From positions 434,001-498,000 of the forward strand of contig NZ_NADJ01000040.1 in NCBI RefSeq assembly GCF_002196705.1: DNA of 64,000 nt, given 5' to 3'. Source of the DNA: Desulfosporosinus sp. FKB (lineage in GTDB: Bacteria; Bacillota; Desulfitobacteriia; Desulfitobacteriales; Desulfitobacteriaceae). Within the stretch, counting starts at the first letter, position 1, and each line of letters starts with the position of its first letter. Positions 58,416 to 61,582 of the stretch are shown piece by piece. Both the position numbers and the translations under genes were made by a program. The notes beneath the pieces are model-generated. The model was given only the letters and a program-made list of their open reading frames with translations, made no database searches and was not told the DNA's origin.

Positions 58416-58866
58416 CGCAAGGTGTCTGACAACATTGCTTCTTATCACACTCAACTTTATTTGAGCCGCAGTGTTGGCAAATCAGCCCGCGTTCCTCATA
58501 GGTGACTGTCATCTCATTTCCACAAGACCTGCATTTGAAATAACAGACATTTTTCGTATAATGGCCGCCTTCAATCCTGATCGCTCTGTTGTCCATCAGT
58601 GCCTTGACAACCTTCCTCCGCGCCTCATCAATAATATTTTGAAAGGTTTGCCGGGAGATCTGCATCCGGACAGCACACTCTTCTTGGGATAGTTCCTCAA
58701 TATCCTTCAGCCGCATGGCCTCTAATTCTTCTATTTTAAGCTGGATCTGTTTAAGTTGACTCTGTTCGCCCCCCTCCAAACAAGCGCATTTGCCCTTGGG
58801 GCAGGGAGCGAAAAACTTATTCTCAGGTATATGTTCAACCCGTCTCCATTTCACCGGTCTAGGCAT
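58408..58866 (-). CDS. DUF134 (UPF0251) DNA-binding protein
   Basis: A 152-residue protein: N-terminal MPRPVKWRRVEHIPENKFFAP with a CPKGKCAC cluster, a sigma-70 region-4-like helix-turn-helix (SQEECAVRMQISRQTFQNIIDEARRKV), and a C-terminal zinc-ribbon-like part (CRSCGNEM and CQHCGSNK) ending in a CDKKQCCQTPC tail. Probably a metal- or redox-binding regulator. The ATG at 58866 has AAGGAGAGACCT. Divergent from the persulfide reductase gene, sharing its control region. Confidence 0.85.
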   Translation of the reverse strand: MPRPVKWRRVEHIPENKFFAPCPKGKCACLEGGEQSQLKQIQLKIEELEAMRLKDIEELSQEECAVRMQISRQTFQNIIDEARRKVVKALMDNRAIRIEGGHYTKNVCYFKCRSCGNEMTVTYEERGLICQHCGSNKVECDKKQCCQTPCEK

Positions 58867-58914
58867 AGGTCTCTCCTTTCGGTTCAATCTGCTCTTCCAG
58901 ATACTTACTTGAGG

Positions 58915-58952
58915 ATAACACGATTATTGTCAAATGCCAATAATCGTGTTAT
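58915..58952. promoter_or_regulatory. 15-bp inverted repeat between divergent genes
   Basis: ATAACACGATTATTG / CAATAATCGTGTTAT, perfect arms with an eight-base loop. It covers the spacer of the putative promoter of the downstream reductase gene, so is probably an operator used by one or both divergent genes. Confidence 0.55.
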
Positions 58953-58955
58953 TAT
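58927..58955 (+). promoter_or_regulatory. Probable promoter of the persulfide reductase gene
   Basis: TTGTCA (58927-58932) and TATTAT (58950-58955) with a 17-base spacer, lying inside the 15-bp inverted repeat and upstream of the CsoR/CstR-like site. Confidence 0.5.
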
Positions 58956-58970
58956 TTTCATGAATTCAGT

Positions 58971-58985
58971 TACCCCTTAGGGGTG
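58971..58985. promoter_or_regulatory. CsoR/CstR-like operator
   Basis: TACCCCTTAGGGGTG contains the palindrome ACCCCT-T-AGGGGT, the G/C-tract form bound by CsoR-family repressors (Cu-sensing CsoR, persulfide-sensing CstR). It lies 16-30 bases after the -10 box and 35 bases before the reductase start. Confidence 0.55.
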
Positions 58986-59019
58986 GGGTTTTAATCTATA
59001 AGCCGAAGGAGACGTTGTG

Positions 59020-60672
59020 ATGGGCAAGAAAGTAGTCATAGTCGGCGGAGTAGCTGGAGGAGCCAGCGCCGCAGCACGGTTACGTCGTCTGGATGAAGAC
59101 ATGGAAATCATCATCTTTGAACGTGGAGAACATATTTCTTACGCAAACTGCGGTTTACCCTATTATGTCAGCGGAGTCATTAACCAAAGGGACGCTCTGC
59201 TTGTTCAAACACCCGAAGGCATGAAAAAACGCTTTAACATCGATGTCCGAACCTTTAGTGAAGTCACCCGTATTTTCCCCGCAGAAAAAGCTGTGGAGGT
59301 CCAGGAAGCTTACGGTAAAACTTATCGCGAAACCTATGACCAATTGATCCTTTCTCCCGGAGCGGCACCGCTTCGCCCGCCGATTCCCGGAATTGACGAC
59401 ATCGAAGCATTAGTCGTGCGCAACGTTACAGATATTGACCGTATTAAACAATATATTGATGAGAAGCAACCTCGATCAGCTGCCGTCGTAGGCGGTGGAT
59501 TTATCGGCCTGGAAATGGCAGAAAATCTGCAGCATAAAGGAGTAGACACCACGCTGATTGAAATGAGCAATCAGGTCATGGCTCCCTTAGACTATGAAAT
59601 GGCTGCCATTCTGCACGAACATATTTTCAACAAAAACGTTGACCTGATCTTAGAAGACGGAGTAAAATCCTTCACCCAAGATGGAGATAAGACTATCATC
59701 ACCCTGCAAAGCGGTAATCAGGTTGAGACAGAATTGATCATCCTGGCCATCGGAGTTAAACCCGAAATTAAACTCGCTAAGGAAGCCGGACTGGCTATCG
59801 GCGAATTAGGCGGAATCAAAGTCAACGAAAAGCTCCAAACCTCAGATCCTAACATTTTCGCCGTCGGCGATGCCATTGAAGTGAAACATTTTGTCACCGG
59901 AAAGCCTGCTCTCATCCCTCTGGCAGGTCCCGCCAATAAACAAGGCCGCATCGTCGCCGACGTCATCGCCGGCCGTGACAGCAAATATGAAGGAACTCAG
60001 GGAACCTCCATTGCCAAAGTCTTTGATATGGCAGCAGCCTCTACCGGTGCTAATGAAAAAATGCTTAAAAAATACGGAATTCCTTACGAAGTCATCTTCA
60101 CTCACTCCGGCTCCAATGCCGCTTATTATCCCGGTGCTACCCGCTTGTCCACAAAACTTCTCTTTGACAAAAGCAACGGCCGAGTCCTGGGAGCACAAAT
60201 TGTCGGCATGAACGGTGTCGATAAACGAATCGACGATATTGCCGGCGTCATCCGCCGCCAAGGCACCGTCTATGACTTACAGGAACTCGAATTAGCCTAT
60301 GCTCCTCCCTTCTCCTCCGCCAAAGACCCGGTCAACATGGCCGGCTACGTAGCAGAAAACGTCATCAATGGTGATGTCCGCATGGTCCAATGGTATGAAG
60401 TCAAAGATATGAACCCCAACGATGTCTGTATTATCGATGTCCGTACTATCGAAGAACGACGCGGAAAATTCATCCCCGGCTCCATCCATATCCCCATCGA
60501 CGAACTCCGCGACCACCTCTCCGAACTGCCAAAAGACAAGGACATTGTCGTCTACTGCGAAATCGGTCTACGTGGTTACGTTGCCTACAGAATGTTAACA
60601 CAGCACGGCTTCACCCGCGTCAGAGATTTGACCGGAGGTTGGGTGACCTATTTCCCCCCAGTATTTGGTTAA
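59020..60672 (+). CDS. CoA-disulfide / persulfide reductase with C-terminal rhodanese domain
   Basis: A 550-residue flavoenzyme of the CoADR-rhodanese group. N-terminal FAD motif VVIVGGVAGGASAAARLRR, active-site Cys44 (YANCGLPYY), NAD-binding VVGGGFIGLEMAE near residue 155, and FAVGDAIE near residue 290. The rhodanese domain (about 455-550) keeps its catalytic Cys in YCEIGLRGY. Such enzymes reduce CoA-disulfide, CoA-persulfide or polysulfide with NAD(P)H. AAGGAG lies eight bases before the ATG at 59020; a GTG three bases earlier is less likely. Confidence 0.9.
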   Translation: MGKKVVIVGGVAGGASAAARLRRLDEDMEIIIFERGEHISYANCGLPYYVSGVINQRDALLVQTPEGMKKRFNIDVRTFSEVTRIFPAEKAVEVQEAYGKTYRETYDQLILSPGAAPLRPPIPGIDDIEALVVRNVTDIDRIKQYIDEKQPRSAAVVGGGFIGLEMAENLQHKGVDTTLIEMSNQVMAPLDYEMAAILHEHIFNKNVDLILEDGVKSFTQDGDKTIITLQSGNQVETELIILAIGVKPEIKLAKEAGLAIGELGGIKVNEKLQTSDPNIFAVGDAIEVKHFVTGKPALIPLAGPANKQGRIVADVIAGRDSKYEGTQGTSIAKVFDMAAASTGANEKMLKKYGIPYEVIFTHSGSNAAYYPGATRLSTKLLFDKSNGRVLGAQIVGMNGVDKRIDDIAGVIRRQGTVYDLQELELAYAPPFSSAKDPVNMAGYVAENVINGDVRMVQWYEVKDMNPNDVCIIDVRTIEERRGKFIPGSIHIPIDELRDHLSELPKDKDIVVYCEIGLRGYVAYRMLTQHGFTRVRDLTGGWVTYFPPVFG

Positions 60673-60770
60673 GAAACAAACGTGTTTCAGATTTTAATAG
60701 AGATATATTAGATATAAGACATGTTAGTCATGTATTAGAGAATCTCTAAATCATATATAATTGTTAAAAA

Positions 60771-60813
60771 GGAATCCCTGAAGGCAATTAGTTTACGCCT
60801 TTCAGGGATTCTC
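60771..60813 (+). terminator. Terminator after the reductase gene
   Basis: GAATCCCTGAAGGC / GCCTTTCAGGGATTC arms with a ten-base loop, then CTCTGTCCGTTT. About 100 bases past the stop. Confidence 0.7.
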
Positions 60814-60836
60814 TGTCCGTTTATCTGTTTTAAAGT

Positions 60837-60875
60837 TTATATGGTTATATGGTTATATGGTTATATGGTTATATG
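60837..60875. repeat. Octanucleotide tandem repeat (TTATATGG)n
   Basis: Four exact TTATATGG units plus TTATATG, in the intergenic stretch between a terminator and the end of the convergent lipoprotein gene. Likely to vary in copy number. Confidence 0.85.
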
Positions 60876-60949
60876 TTTATCTTTTATCTGTTTGCTTGTT
60901 TGTCTGTTTCTTTATATAAATTAGAGCTTACTGCTTAGCCCAGGATCTC

Positions 60950-61582
60950 CTACTTACATATCTCCCTATACTTAGATAACTCAGCAGTATACAGCTCTCG
61001 ATCTTTTGTCATCTTTTTGGTCATTTCAACAGGATCAATATCAGTGGCCTGATTCGTCAATGTCAATTGTTTATAAATAAGCAATGCCTTGAAGTCCAGA
61101 TTGTACGCAGATAAATAAGATTGTAACTCATATGGATTGATGGCTCCAGTTGGATCATTAGGTACTTTTAAGGCGTATAGTTTATCATTGATATTTGATA
61201 CTTTATCTAAGCTCGCATTGACAGAATCAACTTTACTTGGGTCGGTCGTATTGGTGAGGTCATCTATTTCATGTAAAAAAACCTCCGTGTCGTCAAAGAA
61301 CTTAGCAAATGCTGCTTTATCCAATTTCTCTGTTTTATTAACAGGGTTACTAGTATCTTGAGTTTTACCGACTTGTTGATTAGTGTCATTAGTTTTACTA
61401 ACTTGACTATTAGTATCTTGAGTTTTATTAATTGGCTGATTAGTATCTTTAGATTGAGCCGACTGAGCAGCATCTGACGTCGTTTGTGGAGAAACCCCAG
61501 AACTTTGGGTTTGGGTTTTTGAACTTCCACACCCAGCCAAAACAATTGATACCATAATAATTGCAACGAAAAGCTTCTTCAT
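60950..61582 (-). CDS. Lipoprotein with decapeptide repeats
   Basis: A 210-residue lipoprotein: signal peptide with lipobox VLAGC (Cys18), then a Thr/Gln/Asn-rich segment with four units of about ten residues (DTNQPINKTQ, DTNSQVSKTN, DTNQQVGKTQ, DTSNPVNKTE), then a helical domain of about 125 residues. Not recognised. The repeats look like a flexible spacer holding the domain away from the membrane. The ATG at 61582 has GGAGGG eight bases upstream. Confidence 0.65.
   Translation of the reverse strand: MKKLFVAIIMVSIVLAGCGSSKTQTQSSGVSPQTTSDAAQSAQSKDTNQPINKTQDTNSQVSKTNDTNQQVGKTQDTSNPVNKTEKLDKAAFAKFFDDTEVFLHEIDDLTNTTDPSKVDSVNASLDKVSNINDKLYALKVPNDPTGAINPYELQSYLSAYNLDFKALLIYKQLTLTNQATDIDPVEMTKKMTKDRELYTAELSKYREICK

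Follow-up and report, generated by a model that had tools for sequence, protein, structure and literature searches.

A 38-bp palindrome as candidate DUF134 operator between divergent DUF134 and CoA-persulfide reductase-rhodanese genes of Desulfosporosinus

The stretch of DNA analysed here, referred to below as the window, covers 64,000 nucleotides of the genome of Desulfosporosinus sp. FKB and includes two divergent genes separated by an intergenic stretch at 58867-59016 (Table 1). The gene on the reverse strand encodes a DUF134 protein, while the gene on the forward strand, which starts at either a GTG (59017) or an ATG (59020) and stops at 60672, encodes a reductase with a C-terminal rhodanese domain. 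Judged by its sequence, this second product is a CoA-persulfide reductase of the CoADR-RHD type, namely an FAD disulfide reductase fused to a rhodanese; its closest solved relative is 3icr (680 bits over residues 3-544), the cysteines of its NCG and CEIGLRG motifs, one active-site cysteine for each domain, align with cysteines of 3icr, and its match to the CoA-persulfide reductase 8a56 reaches 534 bits. Against TIGR03385, the CoA-disulfide reductase equivalog, it scores 534.9 bits, below the cut-off of 578.8. Downstream of the gene, at 60840-60880 of the window, TATGGTTA-like units are repeated in a short tandem array. Each gene has a predicted promoter, the reverse-strand one mirroring the forward one but weaker; both are matches to consensus, of which the region 58500-61000 gave seven against 3.8 expected.

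Table 1. Features of the divergent locus, in window coordinates
Feature	Position	Strand	Details
DUF134 protein, 152 aa	58408..58866	-	Pfam DUF134 65.9 bits, cut-off 27
Predicted DUF134 promoter	58912..58940	-	-35 TTGGCA, 17 nt, -10 TATCCT; 9/12 consensus
Palindrome of 38 bp, candidate DUF134 operator in its genus-extended form	58915..58952		Repeat anatomy, conservation, paired changes
20-bp core TTATTGTCAAATGCCAATAA, common to DUF134 neighbourhoods of other families	58924..58943		Cross-family comparison
Predicted reductase-rhodanese promoter	58927..58955	+	-35 TTGTCA 58927-58932, 17 nt, TG-TATTAT 58950-58955; 10/12 consensus
CsoR-type site TACCC-CTTAG-GGGTG	58971..58985	+	Contains ACCCCTTAGGGGT 58972-58984; just after predicted transcription start
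CoA-disulfide/CoA-persulfide reductase with C-terminal rhodanese domain	59017..60672	+	Pfam Pyr_redox_2 and Rhodanese

Across the two predicted promoters lies a palindrome of 38 bp, the arms of which (58915-58932 and 58935-58952) are complementary at 17 of 18 positions, with the outer 15 perfect. An earlier reading of this DNA, made from its letters without database searches and called here the sequence-only reading, had described the same element as a perfect 15-bp inverted repeat, an accurate count that leaves 8 nt between the arms, and had placed it over the promoter spacer. The spacer is covered, but it does not account for the whole repeat, which, from the coordinates of the predicted forward promoter, also spans the -35 and part of the -10 element. 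In each arm, a predicted -35 from one promoter is combined with the -10 from the other. Allowing up to three mismatches, the 5.12-Mb genome holds no second copy of the palindrome, and the core, TTATTGNCANNTGNCAATAA, has a single occurrence in the window when two mismatches are tolerated, where shuffles expect 0.04. Length alone does not make it extraordinary, because the window contains 10 closely spaced inverted repeats of 15 nt or more, and it is conservation that carries the case. At 1034-1073 the window also has an inverted repeat with perfect 18-bp arms 4 nt apart. An RNA hairpin or terminator was considered for the palindrome and rejected; the score is terminator-like, yet the element precedes the predicted start, and the adjacent DUF134 gene points in the opposite direction.

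Conservation was followed in 29 genomes of the genus, which yielded 23 full-length close orthologues of the reductase with readable upstream DNA, a truncated copy (L063) and paralogues at 52-56% identity being left out. The palindrome is intact in all nine orthologues that have a divergent long-form DUF134 gene, with 16-17 of 19 positions paired in eight and 13 of 19 in one, and in none of the 14 that lack it (9-12 of 19 pairs), where the half carrying the -10 element is mostly retained. Without the gene, L050 and L052-L055 keep the outer arms ATAACATGATT/AATCATGTTAT, now 13 rather than 16 bp apart, and L062 retains a 16-nt inner core, no long DUF134 having been found in its genome. Across the nine palindromes (seven of them distinct), three pairs are altered on both sides; the count of cells changed on both sides is seven, against 2.6 in shuffles and with none of 500 shuffles as high, and it collapses to zero when the pairing is slid by one to three positions. 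Two of five covariation measures were no better than shuffles: 62 of 500 shuffles had as many doubly altered pairs, and 434 of 500 as many further pair types. Independent events within the genus are few, because the presence of DUF134 needs only four changes on the reductase tree and the starred branches force only two of them.

A wider comparison was made by scanning 18 long DUF134 proteins against the species-genome collection, and the best 80 of the 255 loci obtained, some of which share one genome, were used. Among these, the DUF134 protein nearest to that of the window from a named species is that of Desulfosporosinus acididurans (93% identical; L133). Clostridium ljungdahlii also encodes a relative (L131). 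Exact copies of TTATTGNCANNTGNCAATAA occur at 20 sites in 20 of these 80 loci, and copies with at most one mismatch at 49 sites in 45 of them, whereas 300 permuted palindromes gave, at the same tolerance in the same loci, a mean of 0.11 sites and a maximum of three; the other 35 loci have no site at up to one mismatch. When the 10 loci belonging to Desulfosporosinus or to the discovery-set genera (L115-L123, L133) are removed, a site is still found in 39 of 70. The motif averaged across loci is RTTATTGKCAWWTGMCAATAAY, the long outer arms seen in the window being specific to the genus and lying outside this general motif. All but two of the 49 sites fall outside open reading frames of at least 100 aa, although such frames cover 84% of the DNA, and 39 are found upstream of the DUF134 gene at a distance of no more than 5 kb, with two more than 3 kb downstream of it. 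A -10 element of at least five matches out of six is well placed at 30 of the 49 (61%) against 28% of random positions outside open reading frames, and one of six out of six at 10 (20%) against 3%, an enrichment that is moderate and not decisive. Sites also occur in pairs: of 44 neighbouring pairs less than 80 bp apart at up to three mismatches, 34 are spaced by 40-41 bp (for example L183:7470/7510), or some four helical turns, which suggests cooperative binding or looping.

The genes that follow the sites were assigned to groups by Pfam on representatives. Among 108 site-gene pairs at up to two mismatches, with tandem sites counted apart, the downstream gene is NifX-like in 34 and Mrp/NBP35 in 31, followed by DUF134 itself (seven) and the reductase (four); a NifU-like scaffold, a Fur-family protein and a sulfite reductase-like protein are among those seen once, and ZnuA appears in two loci. 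Many motif-bearing clusters are built of Mrp/NBP35, NifX-like (Nitro_FeMo-Co) and ferredoxin-MinD genes, as are the genes of the orange protein (ORP) complex and Mrp-ORP of Desulfovibrio vulgaris; unlike the latter, the DUF134-type sites described here contain sigma-70-like -35 hexamers. In the FKB genome itself, a second site with one mismatch (L234:3041, C33:539540) stands before an operon of the order short DUF134-NifX-MinD-ferredoxin-MinD-ferredoxin, which is a probable second target.

At the level of whole genomes, the first pattern, allowed two mismatches, matched in 36 of 60 related genomes, in part within DUF134-containing clusters before other genes, Mrp/NBP35 among them, and in part elsewhere; at two mismatches it also matched genomes and places without a long DUF134. 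In the class, 82 genomes were compared, with a long DUF134 defined as a match of 190 bits or more; 14 of the 21 genomes that encode one carry the exact motif, as do four of the 61 that do not (p about 1e-7, relatedness ignored), so that seven of the 21 are without it. Outside the genus the corresponding fractions are 6 of 12 and 4 of 41 (p 0.005). Among the exceptions, the G039 site lies inside a coding frame and G041 has the same site letters, while in G048 and G052 the sites are exact and the DUF134 matches all short; the G048 site precedes, by eye, a NifX-like gene.

The suggestion of the sequence-only reading that the divergent gene encodes a cysteine-rich DUF134 protein is borne out by the Pfam match, which places the window protein above the curated cut-off for DUF134/UPF0251 (PF02001), and by its 13 cysteines. 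Six of these (C108, C112, C115, C130, C133 and C140) are invariant in 34 aligned DUF134 proteins and form what looks like a zinc-ribbon pattern. A stretch resembling Sigma70_r4_2 (residues 42-85) scores 24.2 bits, just below the cut-off of 25.7, and a structure model of only fair quality (pLDDT 76) places helices between residues 45 and 91. A Foldseek search with this model returned no PDB match at an E-value of 0.001 or better, its top matches being MCM proteins, and a search of solved-structure sequences gave weak matches only. In the literature searched, no function, operator or regulon was found for DUF134, UPF0251 appearing as a table entry, neither the motif letters nor regulators of NifX/MinD genes were found, and papers on iron yielded nothing usable; Cap0037, in the available text of PMC5050335, is a different helix-turn-helix protein and was set aside. 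From co-retention within the genus, the compensated changes and the recurrence of the core beside DUF134 genes in other families, DUF134 very probably binds the palindrome, as the sequence-only reading had supposed it might, and it is probably an autoregulating, thiol- or metal-responsive repressor.

The second element noted in that reading, a small CsoR/CstR-like site after the -10, is present as described: ACCCCTTAGGGGT, in which 6-bp arms flank a single base, is found at one place in the window where 0.06 are expected. Genome-wide there is no enrichment, ACCCC-N3-GGGGT being exact at two places, equal to the reversed-pattern control, and it precedes three of the 23 reductase orthologues in the genus. 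Of the two motifs, the palindrome is conserved before orthologues where a long DUF134 gene stands opposite, and the small site is not. A CstR gene, which the same reading proposed to look for, has a candidate among four CsoR-family genes in the genome. One of the four is a trxA-linked CsoR with a Cys-His-Cys arrangement like that of copper CsoR; another is of the copper type and is followed, by eye, by heavy-metal-associated domains; a third (L003) is CstR-like, having two cysteines and no histidine at the metal position when aligned with 7mq1, which we take to be a CstR of the streptococcal type, the entry itself naming csoR; and the fourth (L004) has no cysteines in the family domain. The CstR-like gene is on contig C26, the window being on C35, and it stands in front of another DUF134 paralogue with no such small site directly upstream. 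Elsewhere, in G034, a degenerate-looking CsoR-family protein (L105; 6991-7314) directly follows a DUF134-type site (L105:6878).

The trxA-linked CsoR offers a closer comparison. Its csoR-trxA operator has exactly the letters TACCCCCTTAGGGTA in 25 of the 26 genus loci covered (L239-L264; the incomplete L265, L266 and L268 were left out) and reads TACCCCCTCGGGGTA in the remaining one; it is placed after the -10, and in the FKB genome trxA follows csoR. The window site shares both this position and the TACCC-N5-GGGTR spacing, with the last base off, and its geometry appears to suit the trxA-linked CsoR better than CstR. This csoR gene does not adjoin sulfur-transfer genes such as rhodaneses.

These observations bear on what else could explain the locus. 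In Enterococcus faecalis, according to the available text of PMC9405070, CstR controls the gene of a CoA-persulfide reductase with a rhodanese domain (coaP, in the cst-like operon), the same enzyme class as here, and thiol-based sensing is plausible for the window locus too; a CstR-like sensor on ACCCCTTAGGGGT might in the same way be the main switch, blocking transcription until persulfide cross-links it. The two-cysteine protein of the genome, the location of the small site just past the predicted start, a G/C run that fits the family in the text available of PMC10318464, and the retention of the site in three species while its flanks drift (by eye) are all in keeping with this, and the accessible part of PMC5480029 gives no operator letters. 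We nevertheless think it unlikely, given the few orthologues that carry the site, its lack of enrichment, the remote CstR-like gene with no copy in front of it, and a spacing that is that of the csoR-trxA operator. The E. faecalis case illustrates how a persulfide sensor can govern an enzyme of this kind, but the main operator in the window does not belong to the CsoR type, and the conserved protein reading it seems to be another one, DUF134 being the candidate. Of the overall interpretation offered by the sequence-only reading, the assignment of DUF134 to the larger repeat finds support in the comparison across genomes, while its CstR half is weak; dual persulfide/redox control, which it suggested, is a tentative inference.

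The symmetry could also be a by-product of two mirrored divergent promoters, kept perfect by templated quasi-palindrome correction and involving no dedicated repressor. The sharing of promoter elements between the arms invites this explanation, as does the persistence of the promoter half where DUF134 is lost, but the three co-varying pairs sit in the promoter spacers, where no fixed letters are needed, and in other families copies of the core beside DUF134 genes mostly precede an Mrp or NifX-like gene instead of separating two promoters of this kind, often as tandem sites spaced by 40-41 bp, which together leave it very improbable. A real operator with some other reader, either a short DUF134 paralogue or a global regulator with these clusters in its regulon, would account for the related sites near short DUF134 genes, on C33 in the FKB genome and in G048 and G052. 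It is made doubtful by those genus members that have the reductase and shorter DUF134 matches but neither a long DUF134 nor an intact palindrome, and by a density of sites that declines over a few kb from the long DUF134 gene.

The explanation we favour, and hold to be likely, is that the palindrome serves as operator for the divergent DUF134 protein, which would silence both promoters until a cysteine-directed signal arrives, with the CsoR-type site as a second, species-limited layer. A DUF134 dimer would read the symmetric core. Within TTATTGNCANNTGNCAATAA, two -35-like hexamers stand in inverted orientation (TTGTCA and TTGGCA, one per strand); by occupying these -35 elements the dimer would shut off both its own gene and that of the CoA-persulfide reductase-rhodanese. 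Release could come from a signal on the conserved cysteines, be it persulfide or sulfide, oxidation, or the loss of a bound metal or Fe-S cluster, whereupon persulfidated CoA or other sulfane sulfur would be reduced when needed. The site after the predicted start would add its layer in some species, the trxA-linked CsoR being a likelier reader of it than CstR.

More tentatively, and as a possibility we would not yet lean on, DUF134 may be a clostridial repressor family whose sigma-region-4-like helix-turn-helix reads inverted -35-like hexamers (TTGGCA-WW-TGACAA) in competition with the sigma factor, tying Fe-S carrier/ORP-type genes, and in Desulfosporosinus also CoA-persulfide reduction, to one cysteine-sensed signal. 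Near-identical sites beside relatives of the protein in many clostridia hint that sulfur and iron-sulfur genes share such a switch. With -35-like hexamers in the sites and a helix-turn-helix that resembles sigma region 4, the idea that a sigma-like domain was turned into a repressor becomes testable. For DUF134, a widespread family with no function assigned, the analysis provides a concrete candidate operator and a candidate regulon in clostridia, and for sulfate reducers it points to a possible route by which persulfide clearance might be coupled with iron-sulfur assembly.
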